A DNA stretch of 64,000 nucleotides. It comes from Haloferax massiliensis. Its GTDB lineage: Archaea; Halobacteriota; Halobacteria; Halobacteriales; Haloferacaceae. The position numbers and the translations under genes were made by a program. The stretch spans positions 124,001 to 188,000 of the forward strand of contig NZ_CSTE01000004.1 of NCBI RefSeq assembly GCF_001368915.1, read 5' to 3'. This document shows positions 36,660 through 48,661 of this stretch, piece by piece. Under the pieces are notes generated by a model that saw only the letters and a list, made by a program, of their open reading frames with translations, was not told where the DNA came from and did not search any database. The first letter of the stretch is position 1. Every line of letters begins with the position of its first letter.

Positions 36660-37511
36660 TCAGCGGGCGTATTCGACCAGTTCGTCTCGCGCGCGCCGGG
36701 CCGCCTCGTCGGGTTCGTCGGGGTAGGTGTACAGTTCGAACGTCGCGAAGCCGTCGTACCCGATGTCGTCGAGCGCACCGAAGACGGGTTCGAAGTCGAT
36801 ATCGCCCTCCCCGGGGATGAGGTGGTAGTGCTTTCCGCCGCGGCCGCCCTCGATGTCTTCGAGGTGGATGCCGGTGATGTGACCGGCGCACTGTCGGATG
36901 CTCTCGGCGGGGTCCTCGCCGCAGACGGCGGCGTGGCCGACGTCGAAGTTGACGCCGAGCGCGTCGCTCCCCACGTCGTCGATGAGCGTCAGCACCTCCT
37001 CGGTGCACTCGACGAGCAGTTCCGGTTCGAACTCGATACCGAGGTCGACGCCGACGCCTTCGGCGTAGTCGGTGAGTTCGTCGAGCGATTCGAGCAGGTA
37101 GTCGTAGGCCTCGCCCGGCGGCGTCCCGGGGAGCGCCGACCCGCTTGCGACGCACGCCGCGGGCGCGTCGACCAGCGCGGCGAAGTCGAGAGCCGCCTTC
37201 GTGTACTCGATGCGCCACCGGCGGTCCTCCTCGTCGCCCGAGATGAGCGTCGGGTCGAAAAAGGCCGACGGCGGCGCGTCGTCGTAGTAACCGCACGTCG
37301 TGTTCGCGTTGATGTTCGACACGGAGAGTCCGGTCTCGTCCAGCGCGGCCACGACGCGCTCGCGGTCCGTCTCGTCGAAGTCGGCGAGGAACGCGTGCGG
37401 TTCGTCCGCCAGTATCTCGACCCCGTCGTAGCCGTGATCGGCGATTCGTCGGATTGCCTCCGGCAGGTCGAAACGCGTGTACGCGTTCGTGGAGAAGGCT
37501 AACTGTACCAT
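36660..37511 (-). CDS. Xylose-isomerase-like TIM barrel, ebo-cluster copy 1
   Basis: 283 residues from the ATG at 37511; an in-frame GTG at 37529 is less likely. Sugar-phosphate isomerase/epimerase fold: AFSTNAYTRFDLPEAIRRIA at the start, then metal-site residues in LGIEFEPELL, GVNFDVGHAAVCGEDP, ITGIHLEDIEGG, PGEGDIDF and FELYTYP. It is a paralogue of the gene at 38614-39489 and the last gene of the minus-strand ebo-like set, with its own promoter. It probably isomerises or epimerises a cyclic or sugar-phosphate intermediate; the substrate is unknown. Confidence 0.85.
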   Translation of the reverse strand: MVQLAFSTNAYTRFDLPEAIRRIADHGYDGVEILADEPHAFLADFDETDRERVVAALDETGLSVSNINANTTCGYYDDAPPSAFFDPTLISGDEEDRRWRIEYTKAALDFAALVDAPAACVASGSALPGTPPGEAYDYLLESLDELTDYAEGVGVDLGIEFEPELLVECTEEVLTLIDDVGSDALGVNFDVGHAAVCGEDPAESIRQCAGHITGIHLEDIEGGRGGKHYHLIPGEGDIDFEPVFGALDDIGYDGFATFELYTYPDEPDEAARRARDELVEYAR

Positions 37512-37526
37512 ACGTCGTGGTACAGT
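37502..37526. repeat. Inverted repeat over the start codon of the TIM-barrel gene
   Basis: ACTGTACCA (37502-37510) and TGGTACAGT (37518-37526) are perfect 9-bp arms around a 7-base spacer. On the minus strand the ATG at 37511 lies at the inner edge of one arm. It could be an operator or an RNA hairpin hiding the start codon. Confidence 0.6.
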
Positions 37527-37534
37527 CACACATG

Positions 37535-37549
37535 AATAATTGTTTTGGT
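37535..37549 (-). promoter_or_regulatory. Promoter of the ebo-like TIM-barrel gene
   Basis: ACCAAAACAATTATT (minus strand) begins with a BRE-like ACCAAAA and ends in a TATA-like stretch 24 bases before the ATG. It matches 13 of 15 bases of the element in front of the TatD-family gene at 40299. Confidence 0.55.
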
Positions 37550-37605
37550 ACTGCCAACGTCCGAGACGGAGCGCGATGTCTCCGTCGCCGACGCGCCGGA
37601 CCAGT

Positions 37606-38568
37606 TCACGACACGTCGAACGCCGACGAGAGGCCGACCGCGGGGACGACGAACGCCGCCGCGACGACGCCCCACGCGGGACTCAGCAGTCCGGCGACCG
37701 CTGCGTTCAGCACGACGAGTCCGAGGACGCACGTACCGACCGCGGGGCCGATGGTGCCCGGTCGGGGGTCGGCGTAGGCGGTCAGGAGGTCGCGGCCGGT
37801 CCACGCCGCGAACCAGACGAGGAGTCCGCCGGCCACGGCGAGCGTCGCGGAGTCGGCTGGGTCGACGCCGACCGTCGCGGCGGCCGCGACCACCGACCCG
37901 ACCGCGAGTCCGACGCCGGCTATCCCGACCAGCGCCGCCCGCGAGTCGCCCGCGCCGGTCTCCCGCTCGGCCATGTACGTGACGCCGGCGATGTAGAGCG
38001 CGACGACGACCGGAACGAGGTACACCCACGCCGGGACCGTCAGGGCCGTCGGAGCGGAGGGCGACCCCGCGACGACCGCCATGCCGAGGGCGACGTTCGC
38101 CCCCCGACAGCCACCCATCGCCGCGAAGCCGAGCGGCGTGTCCTTGAGCGCGCCGTCGTAGAGCGCGACGAGCGTACCGAGGGCGGCGGCGACGAGGCCG
38201 GTGGTCGGTCCCCCGGCGGCCGCGGCGACGACGACGCCGGCACAGAGGAGTGCGACGCCGAGATTTCTCGCTCGCGTGCGCGACACGTCCCCCGACGGAA
38301 TCGGTCGCTCCGGGCGGTGCCGGGCGTCCTCGCCGGCGTCGGCGTAGTCGTTGAGCGTCGTACCCGCCGCGTACAGCAGGACCGAGGCGAGCGCGACGCT
38401 GGCGAGCGACGACAGCGGGACCGACGGGCGACCGCCGCTGACCAGTACCGCCCCGAGGATGACGTCGGGCGGCGCGGTGAACAGGTTCGGGGCGCGGACG
38501 AGTCTGGCGAGGCTCGAAAGCGAGCGTCGAAGGTCGCCGGCCGCGGGTGTGGCGTTCGTTCGATTCAT
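37606..38568 (-). CDS. UbiA-family prenyltransferase, EboC-like
   Basis: 320 residues with about nine hydrophobic segments. The motif NDYADAGEDARHRPERPIPS is the first Asp-rich site of UbiA enzymes, which binds the prenyl diphosphate through Mg2+. The N-terminal LVRAPNLFTAPPDVILGAVL is characteristic of the EboC branch. GALKDTPLGFAAMGGCRGAN occupies the region between the two Asp motifs. It lies 45 bases after the second TIM-barrel gene. By analogy with the bacterial ebo cluster it attaches or presents a prenylated intermediate at the membrane. Confidence 0.85.
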   Translation of the reverse strand: MNRTNATPAAGDLRRSLSSLARLVRAPNLFTAPPDVILGAVLVSGGRPSVPLSSLASVALASVLLYAAGTTLNDYADAGEDARHRPERPIPSGDVSRTRARNLGVALLCAGVVVAAAAGGPTTGLVAAALGTLVALYDGALKDTPLGFAAMGGCRGANVALGMAVVAGSPSAPTALTVPAWVYLVPVVVALYIAGVTYMAERETGAGDSRAALVGIAGVGLAVGSVVAAAATVGVDPADSATLAVAGGLLVWFAAWTGRDLLTAYADPRPGTIGPAVGTCVLGLVVLNAAVAGLLSPAWGVVAAAFVVPAVGLSSAFDVS

Positions 38569-38613
38569 CGTCGGTCAGTCGCCCGGACGGGGATTCGTGT
38601 CCGACTCGGGCGG

Positions 38614-39489
38614 TCAGGCCCAGCCATGGGCTTCGAGGTACTCCATCGCGGTCCGGGCCGTCTCCGCCGCGGTCTCTTGGTAGGGGTACAGTTCGACCGT
38701 GACGTAGCCGTCGTAGCCGGTCGCTTCGACCGCGTCGAGGAAGCCGTCGATGTCCATCGCCCCCTCGCCGAGTTGGGTGTGTTCGTGGGTGCGGTCCGCG
38801 GGGATGTCTTCGAGGTGGTAGTGCGGCGTGTAAGGCGCGAGCGTCTCCACCAGTTCGACCGGGTCCTCGCCGACCGAGTAGAAGTGTCCCGCGTCGAAGT
38901 TACAGCCGATACGGGGCGAGTCGACCCGGTCGACGAGGTCGAGGAAGTCCTCGGAGGTCTCGATGAGCAGGTGCGGTTCGGGTTCGACCAGCACGTCGAC
39001 CCCGAGTTTCTCCGCGGCGTCGGCGACCTCGCGGAGGCCCCGGACGAGCGCGTCGAGCGCATCGGCCCGCGACATGCGCTCCGGGACCGGCCCGCCCGGC
39101 GGAACCGAGATGCTCTCCGAGCCGAGCGCGGCCGCGGTTGCGAGCGCGTTCTTCGTGTGCTCGACCCGCGCCTGTCGGTCCTCGGGGTCGAGTTCGACGA
39201 ACGAGGGGTGGTGAAACGCCTCGGTATCGCGGTTGAACGTCGCCGCCCGACTCTCCGCGGAGGGCTCGATGGCGCTGAGCATGAACGCGTTGCAGTTGCT
39301 GACTTCGATACCGCAGTCGTCGAGGAGCGTCCGAGCGCGTTCGAGGTCGTCGCCGTCGGCCGTCCCCGGGAACAGGTGCGGGTCGTCGAGCAGGATTTCG
39401 ACGCCGTCGTAGCCGGCGTCGGCTATCGCCTCGACGCCCTCGGTGAGAGTTCGCTGCCGGAACGCGTTCATCGAGAAGCCGAACTCCAT
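38614..39489 (-). CDS. Xylose-isomerase-like TIM barrel, ebo-cluster copy 2
   Basis: 291 residues, 3 bases after the TatD-type gene and ahead of the UbiA gene, so co-transcribed. It aligns with copy 1 throughout: FSMNAFRQRTLTEGVEAIAD, VLVEPEPHLLIETS, IGCNFDAGHFYSVGEDP, HYHLEDIPADRTHEH, LGEGAMDIDGF and VTVELYPYQ. The metal-binding Glu, Asp, His and Glu positions are kept in both. Two paralogues may act on successive stereocentres or form a heteromer. In bacterial ebo clusters this role belongs to the single EboE TIM barrel. Confidence 0.85.
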   Translation of the reverse strand: MEFGFSMNAFRQRTLTEGVEAIADAGYDGVEILLDDPHLFPGTADGDDLERARTLLDDCGIEVSNCNAFMLSAIEPSAESRAATFNRDTEAFHHPSFVELDPEDRQARVEHTKNALATAAALGSESISVPPGGPVPERMSRADALDALVRGLREVADAAEKLGVDVLVEPEPHLLIETSEDFLDLVDRVDSPRIGCNFDAGHFYSVGEDPVELVETLAPYTPHYHLEDIPADRTHEHTQLGEGAMDIDGFLDAVEATGYDGYVTVELYPYQETAAETARTAMEYLEAHGWA

Positions 39490-39492
39490 CGG

Positions 39493-40299
39493 TCACACCT
39501 CGTAGTGGAAGTTCGGCGACTGGCCGAAGAACTCCCGCGGGTTGTCGTAGACGACCTTTCGGACCTCGTCTCGGTCCCAGCCGCGGTCGAGCATCTTGTC
39601 TCGGGCTTTCGGAACCGCGAGCGGGTCCGAGGGGTCCCAGTCGGCGGCGCTGTTGAGCAACATCTTGTCGGTGCCGTACTCTTCGAGGATGTCGATGGTC
39701 GTCTCGGCGTCTATCTTCCCGGGGTAGAGCGTGAAGCCGAGCCAGCAGTCGGTCTGCAGCGAGATATCGACCGTGTTCTCGGTGTTGTGGTCGATGACGA
39801 TTCGCTCTTCGGTCACGTCTTCCTCCCGAATCATCTCGACGAGTCGCTCGGTCCCCTCGGGCTTCTGGGTGTGCGGGGTGTGGATGATGACCGGCAGTTC
39901 GCGCTCCTCCGCCATCCTGAGTTGGCGTCTGAACGCGTACTCCTCGGCGTCGGTCCCCTGGTCCAGCCCGATTTCGCCGAGGCCGACGACGTGCTCTCGG
40001 TCGAGGTACTCGGGAAGACCGTCCATCACCGCCTCGGCCATCTCGGGGTAGTTCGCCTCCTTGGGTTCGAGGCCGACGGTGACGTAGTGGTCGATGCCCG
40101 CCGCCCGCTCCGCCCGGTCGGTCTCGAACTCGATTATCTGCTCGAAGTAGTCGAAGAACGACGCCGCGTGTCGCTTGTCCGTCCCGCTCCAGAACGCCGG
40201 TTCGACGCAGCATTCCACGCCCGCGAGCCGGGCGCGCTCGTAGTCGCTCGTCGACCGAGAGACCATGTGCATGTGCGGGTCGATAATTGGTATCGACAT
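39493..40299 (-). CDS. TatD-family metal hydrolase, EboB-like
   Basis: 268 residues of the amidohydrolase/TatD fold. Metal-site residues: IDPHMHMVSR, VVGLGEIGLDQG, LPVIIHTPHTQKPEG, RIVIDHNTENT and LNSAADWDPSDPL. The start IIDPHMHMVSRSTSDYE and CCVEPAFWSGTDKRHAASFF match the EboB branch as I know it, rather than housekeeping TatD nucleases. It is the first gene of the minus-strand operon EboB-TIM barrel-EboC. Probable role: hydrolysis of a small-molecule intermediate. Confidence 0.88.
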   Translation of the reverse strand: MSIPIIDPHMHMVSRSTSDYERARLAGVECCVEPAFWSGTDKRHAASFFDYFEQIIEFETDRAERAAGIDHYVTVGLEPKEANYPEMAEAVMDGLPEYLDREHVVGLGEIGLDQGTDAEEYAFRRQLRMAEERELPVIIHTPHTQKPEGTERLVEMIREEDVTEERIVIDHNTENTVDISLQTDCWLGFTLYPGKIDAETTIDILEEYGTDKMLLNSAADWDPSDPLAVPKARDKMLDRGWDRDEVRKVVYDNPREFFGQSPNFHYEV

Positions 40300-40324
40300 G
40301 TGACCTACCTCTCTGATGGTAGTT

Positions 40325-40339
40325 AATCATTGTTTCGGT
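40325..40339 (-). promoter_or_regulatory. Promoter of the EboB-like operon
   Basis: ACCGAAACAATGATT (minus strand) ends 26 bases before the ATG at 40299. It nearly repeats the element at 37535-37549, suggesting that the two transcripts are co-regulated. Confidence 0.55.
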
Positions 40340-40444
40340 GGGTTCGATGACGACGCCGGAGTGGGGGACGAAACGCCCGACCGAGGCGACCCCGCACGCC
40401 GGCGGAGACAGCTATTTACTCGTCCGCGCCGACGCCGTAGTCGC

Positions 40445-40654
40445 ATGCCGGAACACTGTCCGTTCTGCGGCGAGCCGATAGAATCGAACCGCGTCACCCC
40501 CGAGGACGGCCGTCCCTACGAGGAGTGGCGCTGCGTCGACTGCGACGAGACGTGGCGACACCCCGAGGAGACGGTCCTCGACCGGAACCTCGACTTCAGC
40601 AAGCACGGCGACCAACTCGACAGGCGGGACGCCGACACCTCCCTCGACTGGTGA
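40445..40654 (+). CDS. Small zinc-ribbon protein
   Basis: 69 residues from ATG 40445. Two Cys pairs (EHCPFCGEPIE and WRCVDCDETW) form a rubredoxin-like zinc knuckle, followed by an acidic tail. Small haloarchaeal proteins of this sort are common and mostly uncharacterised. It lies 80 bases ahead of the inositol-phosphate synthase gene in the same direction, so it may be part of the ebo-like region, although an AT-rich promoter-like stretch lies in between. GC-rich context and good codon use support it as real. Confidence 0.75.
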   Translation: MPEHCPFCGEPIESNRVTPEDGRPYEEWRCVDCDETWRHPEETVLDRNLDFSKHGDQLDRRDADTSLDW

Positions 40655-40733
40655 GCGGTCGCCCCCGGCATCGGCGCGGAAACAACATGATTGACGGACA
40701 AGGTTATGTATCGCCCACCGCAATCGTGAGTCG

Positions 40734-41930
40734 ATGACAGTCGGAGTGTGGATTATCGGAGCCAGAGGTAACGTCGCGAGCGTCTCGATGACCGGCGCGC
40801 GCGCAATCGCACGCGGAGTCGCGGACACGACCGGAATGGTGACGGCCCGCGAACCGGTGGCCGCGCTGGACCTTCCCGCCGTCGACGACCTCGTGTTCGG
40901 GGGCCACGACATCCGGTCCCAGCGCATCGAGGAGACCGCCGAGGAGATGGCGGGTCACGGCGGCGTCGTGGCACCCGACACCCTCGACGCGGTCCGCGAG
41001 GACCTGCGCGAAATCGACGAGCGGGTCGAACTCGGGACCGCCCGGCGGTGCGGCGAGGCGGTCGAGGGGATGTCCTCGGAGACGGCGAGCGCCGACGTGG
41101 CCGTCGCCGACATCGTCGAGGAGATACGGGCCGACTACGCCGCCTTCGCCGACTCGCAGGACGTCGACCGGCTGGTCGTCGTGAACGCCGCGTCGACCGA
41201 GCCGCCGATTCCGACGCCCGGCGACTACGAGACAGTGGAGGCGTTCGAGACGGCGGTCGAGCGCGACGACCCGAACCTCCCCGCGAGCGCCCTGTACGCC
41301 TACGCGGCGCTCCTCGACGGCCACCCGTACGTCAACTTCACGCCCAGTACCGGGTCCTCGCTCGGCGGCCTGCGCGAACTCGCGGAGCGAAACGGCGTCC
41401 CGCACATGGGCCGCGACGGGAAGACCGGCGAGACGCTGATGAAGTCCGCGCTCGGACCGATGTTCGCGGGGCGGAACCTGCGCGTCCTCTCGTGGGAGGG
41501 CCACAACATCCTCGGCAACAGCGACGGACTCGTCCTCGAAGACGACGCCAACAAGGCGGGGAAGATAGAGAGCAAGGGGGGCCTGCTGGACGATATTCTC
41601 GGCTACGAGACCCACAACGCCGTCCGCATCGACTACACGCCGTCGCTCGGCGACTGGAAGACCGCGTGGGACCACGTCCACTTCGAGGGCTTCCTCGGGA
41701 CGGAGATGAAGATGCAGTTCACGTGGGAGGGAGCCGACTCGGCGCTCGCCGCGCCGCTCGTTCTCGACTTGGTCCGGTTGGCCGCCTTCGCCGACGAGCG
41801 CGGCGAGGGCGGGACGATGCCGCACCTCGCGTCCTTCTTCAAGTCGCCCGAGGGCGTCGACAGCCACGAACTGTCCGAGCAGTTCCGACTCCTCTACGAC
41901 TACGCGGAGCGCCACGCGGAGGGACTGTGA
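40734..41930 (+). CDS. ino1: Inositol-3-phosphate synthase
   Basis: 398 residues, full length for the archaeal enzyme. NAD-binding motif VWIIGARGNVASVSM at the N-terminus; catalytic-domain motifs PYVNFTPSTGSSLGG, MGRDGKTGETLMKSALGPMF, GHNILGNSDGLVL, RIDYTPSLGDWKTAWDHVHF and FLGTEMKMQF. It converts glucose-6-phosphate to inositol-3-phosphate, the first step to inositol. GGTTATGTAT about 25 bases upstream is the likely promoter, and the next gene overlaps its stop. In this cluster it takes the place of EboD, the dehydroquinate-synthase-like sugar-phosphate cyclase of bacteria. Confidence 0.92.
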   Translation: MTVGVWIIGARGNVASVSMTGARAIARGVADTTGMVTAREPVAALDLPAVDDLVFGGHDIRSQRIEETAEEMAGHGGVVAPDTLDAVREDLREIDERVELGTARRCGEAVEGMSSETASADVAVADIVEEIRADYAAFADSQDVDRLVVVNAASTEPPIPTPGDYETVEAFETAVERDDPNLPASALYAYAALLDGHPYVNFTPSTGSSLGGLRELAERNGVPHMGRDGKTGETLMKSALGPMFAGRNLRVLSWEGHNILGNSDGLVLEDDANKAGKIESKGGLLDDILGYETHNAVRIDYTPSLGDWKTAWDHVHFEGFLGTEMKMQFTWEGADSALAAPLVLDLVRLAAFADERGEGGTMPHLASFFKSPEGVDSHELSEQFRLLYDYAERHAEGL

Positions 41931-43327
41931 CGACTCACAGTCCCTCGAACGCGAGTGCGCCCGGTGCCGGTCGCGTCGTCGTCCTCGATATCGTCGGACT
42001 CCAGCAGGAACACCTCGACGAGGGGCTGGCACCGAACGTCGCCGACCTGCTCGCCGGAAAGCCGTCCGGGGCGCTCGAACCCTCGTTTCCGAGCGTCACC
42101 GTCCCCGCGCAGACCACGCTCTCGACCGGGCGGTCGCCCGCGGCCCACGGCGACGTGTCCAGCGGCGAGTTCGACCGCGAGCGCCAGGTCGCCGAGTTCT
42201 GGGAGCGCGACCGGGGGACGCGAACCCGACTGTGGGAGGCCGCGAGCGACGAGGCCGGACTCACGACCGGCGCGCTGTTCTTCCAACACCTCATCGGGAC
42301 GAGCGCCGACGTGGCCGTCACGCCGTCGCCCATCGAGGACGAGGACAACACCCTCGTCGAGATGGACTGCTGGACGAACCCCGACGGCTTCTACGACGGC
42401 CTCCGCGAGGAGTACGGCCACTTCCCGCTGCACAACTACTGGGGGCCGGTCGCCGACGAGCGGAGCAGCGAGTGGATTCTCGCGGCCGCGCGGGAGTCGA
42501 TAGCGCGGTCCGACCCGGACCTGCTGTGGGTGTACGTGCCGCACCTCGACTACGACGCCCAGCGGCACGGCCCCGACTCGCCTGAACTCCGGGAGGCGGT
42601 GGGCGTCGTCGACGACCTCGTCGGCGAGTTCCTCAACTGGCTCGAAGCGACGTCCCGCTGGTCCGAGACGGCGGTCGGCGTCGTCAACGAGTACGGCATC
42701 AACGCGGTCGACACCCCGGTATTTCCGAACCGAGCGCTCCGCGAGGCGGGCCTGCTCTCCGTGCGCGACGACGGCGATGGCGGCGAGGAGGTCGATATCG
42801 CCGCGTCGTCGGCGTTCGCCATGGTCGACCACCAAATCGCGCACGTGTACACCGACCGGCCGGCGGCCGCCCGAGAGGTGCTCGAAGCGCTCCCCGGCGT
42901 CGACGCGGTGCTCGAAGGCGAGGCGCGGGGCGACGCGGACCACCCGAACGCCGGCGACCTCGTCGTCGTCTCGGACGCGGACGCGTGGTTCCAGTACTAC
43001 TGGTGGACCGATGACGCCGACGCGCCGTCGTACGCGACGGAGATGGACATCCACGCCAAGCCCGGCTTCGACCCGTGCGAACTGTTCCTCGGCGACGAGG
43101 GACTCGTGACGCTCGACCCGACGAAAGTGTCCGGGTCGCACGGTCGCGTCGACCCAGACACGCACGGCTTCTACGGCTTCGGCGGGCCGGCGGCGCCCGA
43201 CGGCTCATCCGGTGGCGTCGTCGATGCCCGGCGGTTCGCCCCGACGGTCGCTGACCTCCTCGGCATCGCGGACGACGTGTCGCTCGGGTTCGAGCGCCCG
43301 TCGCTGTTCGCCGGGCCGCGAGCGTAG
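41927..43327 (+). CDS. Type I phosphodiesterase / alkaline-phosphatase-fold protein, EboF-like
   Basis: 466 residues starting with GTG 41927, inside the ino1 stop (GTGA overlap). Alkaline-phosphatase superfamily motifs: the nucleophile Thr region SFPSVTVPAQTTLSTGRSPA, then YVPHLDYDAQRHGPDS, AFAMVDHQIAHVYT and KVSGSHGRVDP for the metal ligands. The usual S-D-H-G site reads VVNEYGINAVDTP, a variant I associate with the EboF branch. No signal peptide is seen. Translational coupling to ino1 means that the two act on one pathway, probably hydrolysing a phosphodiester of an inositol-type intermediate. Confidence 0.85.
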   Translation: MTTHSPSNASAPGAGRVVVLDIVGLQQEHLDEGLAPNVADLLAGKPSGALEPSFPSVTVPAQTTLSTGRSPAAHGDVSSGEFDRERQVAEFWERDRGTRTRLWEAASDEAGLTTGALFFQHLIGTSADVAVTPSPIEDEDNTLVEMDCWTNPDGFYDGLREEYGHFPLHNYWGPVADERSSEWILAAARESIARSDPDLLWVYVPHLDYDAQRHGPDSPELREAVGVVDDLVGEFLNWLEATSRWSETAVGVVNEYGINAVDTPVFPNRALREAGLLSVRDDGDGGEEVDIAASSAFAMVDHQIAHVYTDRPAAAREVLEALPGVDAVLEGEARGDADHPNAGDLVVVSDADAWFQYYWWTDDADAPSYATEMDIHAKPGFDPCELFLGDEGLVTLDPTKVSGSHGRVDPDTHGFYGFGGPAAPDGSSGGVVDARRFAPTVADLLGIADDVSLGFERPSLFAGPRA

Positions 43328-43444: not shown

Positions 43445-46400
43445 TCAGTTACTCGAACTCGCGATTTCGATGGTGCCGCGCATCCGGAAGCTGTGGGCGC
43501 GACAGACGTACTCCGCCATCGAGTCGGTGACGGTGAACGTGACGCTCTGTGACTCGCCCTGCGTCGCGAGGTACGACGTGGAGATGTCGTTGACGACGGA
43601 GTCGTCGCCGTTGACGACCTCGAAGTTGTGGGGCGCGCCGTTTCGGTTCGTCCACGTGACCGTGTACTCGCCGCCGGCTTCGAGGGTGAGCGTCGGGTTC
43701 GTCGCGTCCGCGATACCGGACGGCGCGACGCCGGTCCAACCCTCGTTGCTCTCGGCTTCGAGTTCGATGGTCGACCCGGACGGGATGACATCGCTGCCGC
43801 CGTCGTCGCTACCGCCGTCGTCGCTGCCATCGCCGCCGGTCGCATCGACGTGTTCGGTGACGCGGTCGTAGACGAGTTCCAGCCCGTTGCCGGAGCCGCC
43901 GATGCGCGTCAGTTCGGTGTCGTCGAACCACGCGGTGCCGGTGGCGTTGCCCCAGCCGCCGAACAGCAGGTTGAACTGGAACTCGCCGGGCGACGCGCCG
44001 GTCGAGAACGTCGTTTCGAGCAGTTGCCAGTCGTCGACGGGGTCGGTGTAGTAGTCGGTGACAGAGCCCTGTCCGAGCGAGTGGACGTTGATGGTGACGC
44101 CGTAGGAGCTTCCGATTTCGCCGAAGCCGTCCTCGGAGTTGCTGAAGTCGTCCGAGGTCCTGACCCACGCCCGGAAGCGGTACTCGGAGTTCGGTTCGAG
44201 GTCGTCGCGGTACTGCGACCACGACGCGTCCGCGCCCTCCGTGGAGTCGACGCGAACGCTGTAATCACCCGTCCGCGCCACGTCCGAGGTGTAGGTGAAC
44301 TCGGCCGTGCCGCCGTAGGTGATTCCCTCCCAGTTCGCCGGCCCCTCGGGGTCCGACGACGAGTCGGTGTCCGCGGCCTCTTCGAACGAGGCGTTCGGCA
44401 GGAGGTTGTTCCCGTCGGGGTCGGTCAGCGAGACGTTGTCGAACCACGCCGTCCCCGTCGCGTTGCCGAAGCCGCCGAACAGACAGTTAATCTGGACCGT
44501 CGAGGTGTCGGCACCCGTCGTGAACGTGGTGCTCACCTCGGTCCAGTCGTTCGTTCCGGTCAGCGGGTCGGTCTCGAAGTCAGTGCTGTGGACGTTGAAC
44601 AGCGCGCCGCGGGCCGAGTCGCTCGCCTGCACGTTCTCGGTTCGAATCCAGCCGCTGAGGGTGTACTCCGTCTCGGGCTGGACCGAGATGCCGTCGGCGA
44701 GCCAGACCGCGTCCGCGCCCTCGGTGGACGAGATTTGGACGCTCTGACTGCCGTCTTGGCCCGCGTCCGCGTAGGTGTACTCGGCGGTCCCCGCGAACGT
44801 GTTCGTCGTCCAGTCGGCGGGCATCGAGGATTCGCTCCCGCCGGTGCTCTCTTCGAACGAGCCGTTCGAGAGCACGTCGGTTCCGTCCGGGTCGGTCAAC
44901 GAGACGCCGTCGAACCACGCCGTGCCGGTCGCCTCGCCGTAGCCGCCGAACAGGCAGTTAATCTGGAGCTCTTCGAGGTCGCCGCTGTTGACGGTGGTGC
45001 TCACCTCCGTCCAGTCGTTGGTGCCGGTCAGTCCGGACGGAATCGTGTCCCACTGCGTGCCCGAGTCCGCGTTCGCTATCTGCTCGACGCTGATGGTCGC
45101 GCCGAGCGGCCCCTCGCCGATTGCGGTGCCGTCAACGAGTTGGACGTTGTCGGTCTTGACGTAGGCGGAGAGCGTGTACTCGGTGTTCGGGTCGACCGCG
45201 ACCGTCGCGTTCCACGACGCGTCCGCGCCCTCGGTGGACGAGACTTGGACGCTCCGGTCGCCCTCGTAGCCGGTCTCGGCGTACGAAAACTCGGGCGAGC
45301 CGGAGTAGCCCGTGTTCGACCAGCCGACGGGCATCGCGTCGGAGTCGCCGGTGTCGCCGCCGACGGGCGTCTCGAACGAGGGGTTCTCGATGAGGTTCGG
45401 GAGGTCGTCGCCGGTGTCGCCGCCGTCGCTCGTGTCCTCGTTGGCCTCGTACGCTGGGATGAAGCCGTCGGCGTGGGTCGCGCCGGCGAGCGACGCCGCG
45501 TCCACGAGGACCGTGTCCCGGTAGTTCGACTCGTCGCTAATCATCTGGTAGACCGCCTCGCCGGAGGCGTCGTCGGCCGGCGTCTGCGCGAGCGCGACGA
45601 GCGCCCACATGGCGACCCGACCGTCCTCGTCGTTGAGGAGGTCGTTGTCGAGAATCGCCCCCCGCGTGTCCGTCGTCGAGGGGAGGACGCGGAGTGCGGT
45701 GAGTCTGACGCCCGGCGAGGAGTGCGTCAGCGCGCCGAGCGCGGCCTGAATCGCGGTGCTGTTCCCGGTGTCGGCGTCGAGCGCGCCGAGGCCGTGCATC
45801 GTCCACAGCGCGTGAATCGCCGCCGGGTCGAGGCCGACCTCGTCGAGCGTCTCCGTCGTGACGAGGTCGACGAGCGAGGAGAGCGCGCCCGTCTCGTTCC
45901 GTTCGACCAACAGCCGCTGGGCCGTCCGCCGCCAGAACATGTTCGAACTCGACAGCGCCTCGACGAGTTCAGAGACGCTCGCGTCCGCGAGGTCGGTCGG
46001 CTCGTAGCCGTCGTCGTCGCCGTAGACGACGCGGAAGAGCCGGGCGGTCGCGTGGTCGCGTACCTCGGACATGTACGCGTTCCCGGGGCCGTTGTCGAAG
46101 CCGTCGGGTGTCGGGTTGTGCTGGTAGATGTAGTTGTACCAGTCGATGAACCACAGCATACCGTCCGGACCGACCGAGGAGTACGACGGCGCGAACCACG
46201 CGTCTGTCGCGCCCGCGATGTTGTGGGCGTAGTGGTTGGTGTACCCCGCGCCGTCCTGCGAGAGGAAGAACGTCCCGAGGAGGTGTCCCGTTCCGCCGCC
46301 GACGAAGCCGGTGTTGTTCCAGTACTTCTCGGGATATTCACGCGCCGTGTAGATGGTGTGGCCGGTCGCCGCGGTGTACCCGCCGTGGAGGTCGACCTGC

Positions 46401-48661
46401 CGGACGCGGTCCGTGACCGGGAGGAACCGATTCGAGTCGGAGGCCGCGCCGAAGTCGTTCGGTCCGGTCCCCTCGATGAGGTCGTAGTGCTGATGCGGGA
46501 TGGCGAAGTAGTTGCTCGGTCGGCCAGAGGTCGCGGCCGAGCCGAACGCGAGGCCCTCCTCGGTGAAGCCGAGGCCGGCCTGGTTCCCCGGGAGCGCCCC
46601 GACGATTTCGAAGTCGGTGACCGAGCCGTCCTCTAACTTGAATCGGTAGACCGAGGAGCTGAAGTTTCGCTCCTCGCCGGCGATGGTGCCGCTGAAGCCG
46701 CCGTACCCGACCTGTCCCCAAATCCAGTTGTCGATGCCGTGGACCAGTTCGTTGGGACCGGCGTGGGTGTCGCCGTTACCGTACCCGGAGAACAGGACGG
46801 TTCGCTCGTCGGCCTGTCCGTCGCCGTCCGTGTCGGCGAGGTGGACCAACTTCCCGCTCTCGCTCGGGTCATCGAGGTCGGTGACGACGACGCCGTCGTC
46901 GACGACCACCATGCTCGGGGGAATCGAGAGCCCGTCCGCGAAGACGGTGAACTCGTCGGCCTGCCCGTCGCCGTCGGTGTCCTCGCAGACGACGATTTTG
47001 TCGCGGTTCTGCCCCAGTTCGTTGGGGTAGTCGCGGGTGACCGACAGCCAGACGCGACCCTGTTCGTCGAACTTCGCGTCGAGGATGTTCCCCTTCGCGT
47101 CGTCCGGCAGGTCGGCCTCGGTGACGAACGGTTTGAGGTCGAAGCCCTCCGGCGTAATCGTCCGCCGGACCGTCTCGCTGGGATTCAGCGCCCGCTGCAT
47201 CTTGTTCCAACTCGTCCCGCTGCCGACCTCCTCGGGGACCTCCGGCGTCAGGAGGCTCCCCTCCGGCGGCGGATAGTACGGGATGTCGGCGTCGATGAAC
47301 TCCAGGTCGTTGAGGACCTTGGTGTCGTCGGCGATGGTGTCTTCGTTCTTCGTGACCCAGCGAATCGCGTTCTCGATGAGCGCCTTGAAGCCGTCGGTGG
47401 CCCACGGCGCTCTGCCGTGGCCCCACGCGGTGTAGAAGACGCGACCGTCGCCCTGCGTTCGGGTCCACGACCACGGCTCGCCCTGTTCGCGGCCCTCGTC
47501 GTACTCGGGGATGCTGTCCCCGTCGGGGAACTGCCCGTAGGCGAGGACGTTGATGTCGTCGTTGAGGTTCGTGTGGCGGTACGTCTCGTCTTCGACCGTG
47601 ATGGGGTCGAGGTTCGACAGAATCGGATGACTCGGCTGGGCGAAGCTCGTCGTCATCTCGTTGTAGTTGTGGTCGGCGAACTGACCGCCGACGAGGTTCA
47701 TGTAGGCGTCCGAGCCGGTGAAACAGGCCGAGGCGCTGTGAATCGGGATGAAGCCGCCGCCGTTCTCGACGAACTCGACGATGGACTGCTCCTGTTCCGC
47801 GGTCAGCTCTTGGCCGTAGTTCGCGCCGCGGTTGTCCATCATGACCCACGCGTCGTAGCGGTGGAGCACGTCGGGTTCGAGGTCGGCGAGGCGGTCGGTG
47901 TACTGGACCTCGATGCCGCGGTTCAGCATGTACTCGGTGAGCTGGACCTGCCGGGCGGGGCCGTTGTGGCTGCCGCCCTGCGGACCGCCCATCATGAGGA
48001 CGCTGATGTTGTCCTCGGCCGGCGGCGGCGTTATCTCGACGCTCCCCCGCATCTGCTCGGGGTGTTCCTCGGCGTAGTACATCGCCATCGACGACTCGGC
48101 GGTAAAGGTGACCGTCTGCGAGTCGCCGGACCCCTCCATCGTGGAAAAGGACTGCATCTCCTCCCCGGTCGGGTCCGCGAGGACGAACGTGATGGCCTCG
48201 TCCATGACGTTCGAGAGCTCTATCTCGTACTCCTCGCCCTCGTGCATGACGAGCGTCGGGTTGACGGTGTCTTCCATCTCGTCGGGCGCCGTCGCGACCC
48301 ACGAGAACGAGTCCGCCGAGGTCTCGACCTCCGTCCCGTTGCGCCAACTGTTGATTCCCTTCAACAGGGAGTTCGTCGTCAGGTCGCCCTGACGCCAGTC
48401 GGATATGGCGTCGGCGAGGCCGGACCCCTCGATGACCGACTCCTCGTTCGTGTACGCCGCGAGGACGTCACCCTCCGTCGCGACGAGGCGAATCGTGTCG
48501 TCGGTGGTGAGCTGTTTCGCCTGCGCGACGCCGCTGGCCCCGAGGAAGTTCGCCGCCCCGGCGCCGCTCACTTTCATGAAGTCGCGCCTGTTGATGTTCA
48601 GTCGCTCGCTGTCGCCGTCGCCGGCGTTCGCTTCCCGTGTCGTGTCGTCGTCGTGTGTCAT
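43445..48661 (-). CDS. Giant exported ThuA / PVC-type dehydrogenase protein with two cupredoxin domains
   Basis: 1738 residues. Order: Tat signal (NINRRDFMKVSG), dockerin-like module (66-113), cupredoxin-like domain 1 (about 118-212), ThuA glutamine-amidotransferase-like domain (about 218-440; SVLMMGGPQGG, VFYTAWGHG), PVC-type propeller dehydrogenase domain (about 500-880; DGDGQADEFTVFADGLSIPP), HEAT-like helical repeats (about 890-1080), and three carbohydrate-binding-like repeats beginning ENPSFETP, LSNGSFEE and LPNASFEE. An Asp/Gly/Ser linker and cupredoxin domain 2 (about 1625-1735) complete it. Domain 2 keeps type-1 copper ligands His1678, Cys1720, His1723 and Met1727. The role is inferred: oxidation of extracellular sugars with a built-in copper electron acceptor. 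Confidence 0.88.
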   Translation of the reverse strand: MTHDDDTTREANAGDGDSERLNINRRDFMKVSGAGAANFLGASGVAQAKQLTTDDTIRLVATEGDVLAAYTNEESVIEGSGLADAISDWRQGDLTTNSLLKGINSWRNGTEVETSADSFSWVATAPDEMEDTVNPTLVMHEGEEYEIELSNVMDEAITFVLADPTGEEMQSFSTMEGSGDSQTVTFTAESSMAMYYAEEHPEQMRGSVEITPPPAEDNISVLMMGGPQGGSHNGPARQVQLTEYMLNRGIEVQYTDRLADLEPDVLHRYDAWVMMDNRGANYGQELTAEQEQSIVEFVENGGGFIPIHSASACFTGSDAYMNLVGGQFADHNYNEMTTSFAQPSHPILSNLDPITVEDETYRHTNLNDDINVLAYGQFPDGDSIPEYDEGREQGEPWSWTRTQGDGRVFYTAWGHGRAPWATDGFKALIENAIRWVTKNEDTIADDTKVLNDLEFIDADIPYYPPPEGSLLTPEVPEEVGSGTSWNKMQRALNPSETVRRTITPEGFDLKPFVTEADLPDDAKGNILDAKFDEQGRVWLSVTRDYPNELGQNRDKIVVCEDTDGDGQADEFTVFADGLSIPPSMVVVDDGVVVTDLDDPSESGKLVHLADTDGDGQADERTVLFSGYGNGDTHAGPNELVHGIDNWIWGQVGYGGFSGTIAGEERNFSSSVYRFKLEDGSVTDFEIVGALPGNQAGLGFTEEGLAFGSAATSGRPSNYFAIPHQHYDLIEGTGPNDFGAASDSNRFLPVTDRVRQVDLHGGYTAATGHTIYTAREYPEKYWNNTGFVGGGTGHLLGTFFLSQDGAGYTNHYAHNIAGATDAWFAPSYSSVGPDGMLWFIDWYNYIYQHNPTPDGFDNGPGNAYMSEVRDHATARLFRVVYGDDDGYEPTDLADASVSELVEALSSSNMFWRRTAQRLLVERNETGALSSLVDLVTTETLDEVGLDPAAIHALWTMHGLGALDADTGNSTAIQAALGALTHSSPGVRLTALRVLPSTTDTRGAILDNDLLNDEDGRVAMWALVALAQTPADDASGEAVYQMISDESNYRDTVLVDAASLAGATHADGFIPAYEANEDTSDGGDTGDDLPNLIENPSFETPVGGDTGDSDAMPVGWSNTGYSGSPEFSYAETGYEGDRSVQVSSTEGADASWNATVAVDPNTEYTLSAYVKTDNVQLVDGTAIGEGPLGATISVEQIANADSGTQWDTIPSGLTGTNDWTEVSTTVNSGDLEELQINCLFGGYGEATGTAWFDGVSLTDPDGTDVLSNGSFEESTGGSESSMPADWTTNTFAGTAEYTYADAGQDGSQSVQISSTEGADAVWLADGISVQPETEYTLSGWIRTENVQASDSARGALFNVHSTDFETDPLTGTNDWTEVSTTFTTGADTSTVQINCLFGGFGNATGTAWFDNVSLTDPDGNNLLPNASFEEAADTDSSSDPEGPANWEGITYGGTAEFTYTSDVARTGDYSVRVDSTEGADASWSQYRDDLEPNSEYRFRAWVRTSDDFSNSEDGFGEIGSSYGVTINVHSLGQGSVTDYYTDPVDDWQLLETTFSTGASPGEFQFNLLFGGWGNATGTAWFDDTELTRIGGSGNGLELVYDRVTEHVDATGGDGSDDGGSDDGGSDVIPSGSTIELEAESNEGWTGVAPSGIADATNPTLTLEAGGEYTVTWTNRNGAPHNFEVVNGDDSVVNDISTSYLATQGESQSVTFTVTDSMAEYVCRAHSFRMRGTIEIASSSN

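Follow-up and report, generated by a model that had tools for sequence, protein, structure and literature searches.

A 64,000-nucleotide stretch of Haloferax massiliensis DNA (contig NZ_CSTE01000004.1, positions 124,001 to 188,000; here called the window) carries six genes that recall the ebo operon of bacteria, with ino1, the gene for myo-inositol-1-phosphate synthase, in the place of the gene for the sugar-phosphate cyclase EboD. Ebo clusters, whose function has yet to be explained, are found in cyanobacteria, pseudomonads and numerous other bacteria and in algal plastids. The six genes and one accessory gene are arranged as follows.

36660-37529, minus strand: XI1, a xylose-isomerase-like TIM barrel (PF01261, Pfam 159 bits)
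37606-38568, minus strand: UbiA, an EboC-like membrane prenyltransferase (PF01040)
38614-39489, minus strand: XI2, a TIM barrel of a second subfamily (PF01261)
39493-40299, minus strand: TatD, an EboB-family hydrolase of the TatD superfamily (PF01026)
40445-40654, plus strand: a small zinc-ribbon protein, accessory, between the divergent halves (present in 8 of 37 haloarchaeal loci)
40734-41930, plus strand: Ino1, myo-inositol-1-phosphate synthase (PF07994 and PF01658)
41927-43327, plus strand: PDE, an EboF-like member of the type I phosphodiesterase family (Phosphodiest, PF01663)

The six open reading frames lie at the positions that an earlier, sequence-only reading had given, and Pfam confirmed their broad families. 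The minus-strand genes are transcribed in the order TatD, XI2, UbiA and XI1, with XI2 starting 3 bases downstream of TatD, and the zinc-ribbon, Ino1 and PDE genes diverge from them. The TGA stop codon of ino1 (41928-41930) overlaps the GTG start codon of the PDE gene (41927-41929), the shared letters being GTGA, and because of this overlap the translational coupling already proposed for the two genes is real at this locus.

The arrangement recurs in other haloarchaea. Of 292 Halobacteria genomes, 37 contain the UbiA of the window, and in 29 of these 37 loci all six genes lie in one stretch, the remaining 8 being cut by contig ends or having dispersed genes. Among the cultured species with the complete cluster are Halorubrum saccharovorum (L083), Halococcus morrhuae (L087) and Halorussus aquaticus (L135); a PF01658 gene is also present in Haloferax volcanii. 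The Ino1 and PDE genes point in the same direction in all 31 haloarchaeal loci that have both, and the Ino1 and TatD genes lie on opposite strands in 29 loci; the six-gene arrangement thus occurs far more than chance would allow. The Ino1 family (PF01658) was present in 39 of the 292 genomes, including every one of the 37 UbiA carriers (both genes in 37, Ino1 only in 2, UbiA only in 0, neither in 253; Fisher p ~7e-45, with no correction for kinship). One of the two Ino1-only genomes has an Ino1 of a different subfamily (60 bits, versus 604 for the other), and the other has a cluster-type Ino1 with none of the other genes nearby. In three genomes (L161, L164 and L165), Ino1 lies apart from the TatD-UbiA half and both are still kept; the PDE was not located in every genome with this separation. 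In a search of 393 Halobacteriota genomes, matches of the EboB type (E < 1e-120) came only from the window's own order, i.e. Halobacteria, within which the distribution of the cluster is now patchy.

Trees, profiles and signature motifs indicate that the TatD, UbiA and PDE proteins are relatives of EboB, EboC and EboF, as had been suggested from the sequence. The window TatD shares 40-48% identity with bacterial EboB but 24-29% with the other TatD proteins of haloarchaea (tblastn, plasmids), has conserved metal ligands and falls within the EboB clade (support of 99 against sister TatD). The best NCBIfam models for UbiA were EboC (166 bits; cut-off, 250) and SCO3242 (155 bits; cut-off, 260), the next best scoring 73; these scores are under the curated cut-offs, yet far above those of housekeeping UbiA models. 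UbiA also has a conserved NDxxDxxxD motif and the EboC-type arginine described previously (PMC9235831). The genome has seven other UbiA genes, just one of which gives a match to the EboC-type profile (58 bits). A housekeeping origin of TatD or UbiA was rejected on the identities and trees, the UbiA tree having a single distant outgroup row, so that its deep branching order is unsure. The proteins of Archaeoglobi and other non-halophilic archaea (L242-L245; PDB 3guw, AF_1765) matched with E values of about 1e-36 to 1e-53 and belong to a separate family that is sister to EboB.

The PDE is 35-41% identical to EboF, and the motifs PHLDY and S/N-EYG recur in the sequences compared, whether from haloarchaea, from classic ebo clusters or from Ino1-type bacteria. 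Compared with the two-zinc ligand set of NPP enzymes, EboF-family proteins keep the threonine nucleophile and one aspartate; IDGL has become VVGL or IVGL, a histidine Q or L, and SDHG S/N-EYG, so that the other zinc-ligand positions are occupied by V, Q or L, E and Y. With most canonical ligands gone, the phosphodiesterase label is doubtful for the whole EboF family, and its members may be something other than zinc phosphodiesterases. AlphaFold modelled the PDE poorly (mean pLDDT, 57.5).

Ino1 aligns over its full length with the Archaeoglobus fulgidus enzyme (299 bits) and has both the NAD-binding (PF07994) and the catalytic (PF01658) domain. The catalytic lysines, which are changed in A. fulgidus mutant PDB entries, are conserved in the window protein and invariant across cluster members. 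As the sequence-only reading had it, EboD is missing and Ino1 stands in its place: the cluster contains no EboD-type gene, and PF01761 had no match anywhere in the window's genome, nor in 36 others of 39 genomes searched, the remaining two giving weak matches. EboA (NF035938) was found neither in the cluster nor in any of the 39 genomes, with a model that matched no control genome either; EboA is likewise missing from some classic ebo operons (PMC5133447).

The same reading had taken the two TIM barrels to be of the EboE type, and this had to be abandoned. XI1 and XI2 scored 24 and 19 bits on the EboE model NF035939 (cut-off, 250) and fell outside the EboE clade, so that EboE is absent from the cluster. 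They represent two separate PF01261 subfamilies, each with bacterial relatives. XI1, in which the metal residues E-D-H-E are conserved, forms a clade with bacterial XI1 (SH-aLRT, 97) apart from EboE, and its subfamily is found also in deltaproteobacterial and myxobacterial Ino1 loci; that of XI2 is found also in deltaproteobacteria and Planctomycetota. In actinobacteria, a true EboE has a related TIM barrel as its neighbor. The predicted model of XI2 (pLDDT, 93.5) has a tagatose-3-epimerase-like fold (Z of 30.8 to 3wqo), with Art22 as a structural neighbor. Its solved relatives by sequence include the inosose isomerase IolI, a likeness that does not fix the substrate.

Ino1-type ebo sets also occur in bacteria, which we sampled through the best 80 Ino1 matches and plasmid records, several of the loci being in metagenome-assembled genomes (MAGs). 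Streptomyces sp. NBC_00376 has Ino1, an SCO3242 prenyltransferase, XI, EboA, TatD, EboE and EboF in one run that contains no EboD, and an Ino1 scan with neighborhood typing found such clusters lacking EboD in further Actinomycetota (L125, L127, L136 and L148). In Gemmatimonadota, EboE occurs together with EboB-EboF-UbiA-Ino1-XI, and Planctomycetota have Ino1-XI2-UbiA, to which some add another XI, the ebo set being partly dispersed. A MAG labelled Proteobacteria (L101) has Ino1, XI1, TatD, XI2, UbiA and EboF, and another locus (L124) has a shorter Ino1-XI1-TatD-EboC run. EboB-type TatD (E < 1e-104) was present in 32 of 45 genomes tested and was mostly unlinked in Planctomycetota. In favor of a replacement, the EboD model exceeded its cut-off in 4 of 4 classic ebo records (531-572 bits) and in 0 of 35 Ino1-type genomes (best score, 222 bits, an ordinary AroB level). 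Planctomycetes have been reported to have unclustered ebo genes and to lack eboD in two of three cases (PMC5133447). Our findings are consistent with Ino1 filling the EboD role there, and the exchange offers a reason for that gap. In the open-access literature, we found no description of Ino1 in ebo clusters or of ebo in archaea.

In trees built from quick searches, the haloarchaeal TatD, UbiA, XI1, XI2 and Ino1 proteins each form one clade. Haloarchaeal Ino1 nests among bacterial Ino1 proteins and not with those of Archaeoglobi, on which ground an archaeal origin of Ino1 was rejected, and haloarchaeal TatD adjoins the L101 and L124 proteins with modest support (85). A bacterial donor of the haloarchaeal cluster is likely. 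The proposal of an archaeal ebo variant therefore stands insofar as the cluster is conserved in haloarchaea; it falls insofar as the variant is not specifically archaeal, with Ino1-type sets in four or more groups of bacteria and haloarchaeal Ino1 and TatD nested among bacterial proteins. On the EboB tree, the cyclase label switches between Ino1 and EboD several times, at least four of these switches being forced by starred branches (for Planctomycetota, the label reflects genome content, not linkage).

With moderate confidence, we read the haloarchaeal cluster as an Ino1-type variant of the ebo system that was gained from bacteria and makes a cyclitol derived from inositol phosphate and joined to an isoprenoid. 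Ino1 would convert glucose-6-phosphate to inositol-3-phosphate, the kind of cyclitol phosphate that EboD would supply in classic ebo systems, where it is posited to use sedoheptulose-7-phosphate (PMC5133447). XI1 and XI2, as metal-dependent enzymes of the ketose-epimerase/inosose-isomerase kind, would isomerize the cyclitol or a keto derivative of it; the EboC-type membrane enzyme would join an isoprenoid to the cyclitol; and the EboB-type hydrolase and the EboF-like protein, with its noncanonical active site, would remodel or trim intermediates. The product would be a prenylated cyclitol serving as a membrane-linked metabolite or carrier; a prenyl-linked, inositol-derived metabolite, made or exported by haloarchaea, was also what the sequence-only reading had proposed. 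We infer this reaction order, the product and the substrates of XI1, XI2, UbiA, TatD and PDE from the families involved. The replacement of EboD in the same gene context by Ino1, a family whose reaction is known, gives independent support for a cyclitol substrate. Given that the swap occurs in several bacterial phyla, it also suggests that the ebo product in general is built on an inositol-like ring, an idea that now becomes testable. More tentatively, and with rather less confidence, we suggest that an isoprenoid-linked cyclitol is the product of ebo systems at large, that the unrelated cyclases EboD and Ino1 have been exchanged repeatedly, that haloarchaea make an inositol-derived prenylated metabolite and that EboF is not a zinc phosphodiesterase.

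Several observations weigh against the main reading. With EboE missing and EboA not found, only three of the six ebo proteins are present. The core cluster contains no dehydrogenase for making a keto-cyclitol, and EboF-family proteins have lost most NPP-type zinc ligands. We know of no ebo protein for which a reaction on a cyclitol has been demonstrated. The only EboC-type enzymes tested farnesylate quinoline acids (PMC9235831). Because the Ino1-type genomes were selected by their Ino1, the apparent mutual exclusion of Ino1 and EboD is not an unbiased estimate. Finally, three deltaproteobacterial loci (L084, L089 and L090) have an Ino1-XI1-XI2 run in genomes without EboB, which leaves room for an independent role of the Ino1/XI part.

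The alternative that fares best, which we nevertheless regard as unlikely, is that Ino1- and EboD-type systems yield the same final compound, the ring being supplied interchangeably by Ino1. Actinobacteria retain the other ebo genes, EboA and EboE included, and Gemmatimonadota EboB adjoins the EboB of an EboD-type Deinococcus cluster on the tree and is ~75% identical to it, as would suit such an exchange; against it stand the one or two additional TIM barrels of most Ino1-type sets and the presumed difference between the sugars that the cyclases use, of 6 carbons for Ino1 and 7 for EboD (PMC5133447 for EboD). It is improbable that Ino1 serves only to provide inositol for a solute or for archaetidylinositol, its place beside the ebo-like genes being incidental. 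Ino1 is a standard source of inositol, and archaea fairly commonly contain archaetidylinositol (PMC9385802), but the cluster-type subfamily is nearly confined to genomes with UbiA (37 of 38 Halobacteria) and is kept with it even when unlinked, groups with bacterial rather than Archaeoglobi Ino1, and has no recurrent noncore neighbor resembling a lipid head-group transferase. Equally improbable is that the set, as an isomerase/hydrolase pathway, breaks down or salvages an inositol-like compound and makes no prenylated product, since, despite the resemblance of XI1 and XI2 to ketose epimerases, IolI, IolO and IolE and the sugar-dehydrogenase-like genes near several clusters, Ino1 is biosynthetic and the set always includes a UbiA that has prenyl-diphosphate motifs.

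Beside the PDE gene, the window encodes a 1,738-amino-acid Tat-signal protein (43445-48661) with ThuA, DUF7133, carbohydrate-binding and plastocyanin-like domains. DUF7133/GSDH and multicopper oxidase neighbors were rejected as core members, their conservation being too low. Sugar-dehydrogenase-like genes recur near the cluster in haloarchaea (L070, L035, L036, L037, L046 and L050) and in bacteria (L124 and L074). A fumarylacetoacetate-hydrolase family gene lies near it in L062 (10357-11223, directly downstream of XI1) and in about nine other haloarchaeal loci. In L101 (167-10907), IPP isomerase, squalene-cyclase-like, TonB receptor-like and TonB-like genes are interleaved with the Ino1-type ebo genes, the IPP isomerase gene being directly upstream of Ino1.

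Among known systems, the deltaproteobacterial Ino1-XI1-TatD-XI2-UbiA locus of L101, seen only in a MAG and partly matched by L124, contains all six families, and its XI1, XI2 and TatD rank with the closest relatives that the haloarchaeal proteins have in bacteria; it differs in gene order and in its extra IPP isomerase, cyclase-like and TonB receptor-like genes. The cluster of Streptomyces sp. NBC_00376 (L069) shares Ino1, an EboC-like prenyltransferase, an XI TIM barrel, EboB and EboF with the haloarchaeal one. Unlike the latter, the actinobacterial cluster keeps EboA and EboE, has a single XI of another subfamily and runs in one direction. The CDA region of Streptomyces coelicolor likewise includes SCO3242, annotated as a "putative transferase," and SCO3243, a "myo-inositol phosphate synthase" (PMC3610822). 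With the classic eboABCDEF operon of bacteria and plastids (Yurchenko 2016, PMC5133447; scytonemin export, PMC6282210), the haloarchaeal cluster has in common clustered EboB, EboC and EboF proteins and a sugar-phosphate cyclase. It differs in having Ino1 for EboD, in lacking EboE, with EboA not found, and in its two other TIM barrels, its two divergent transcription units and its host, the Ino1-type set extending the ebo system to archaea.

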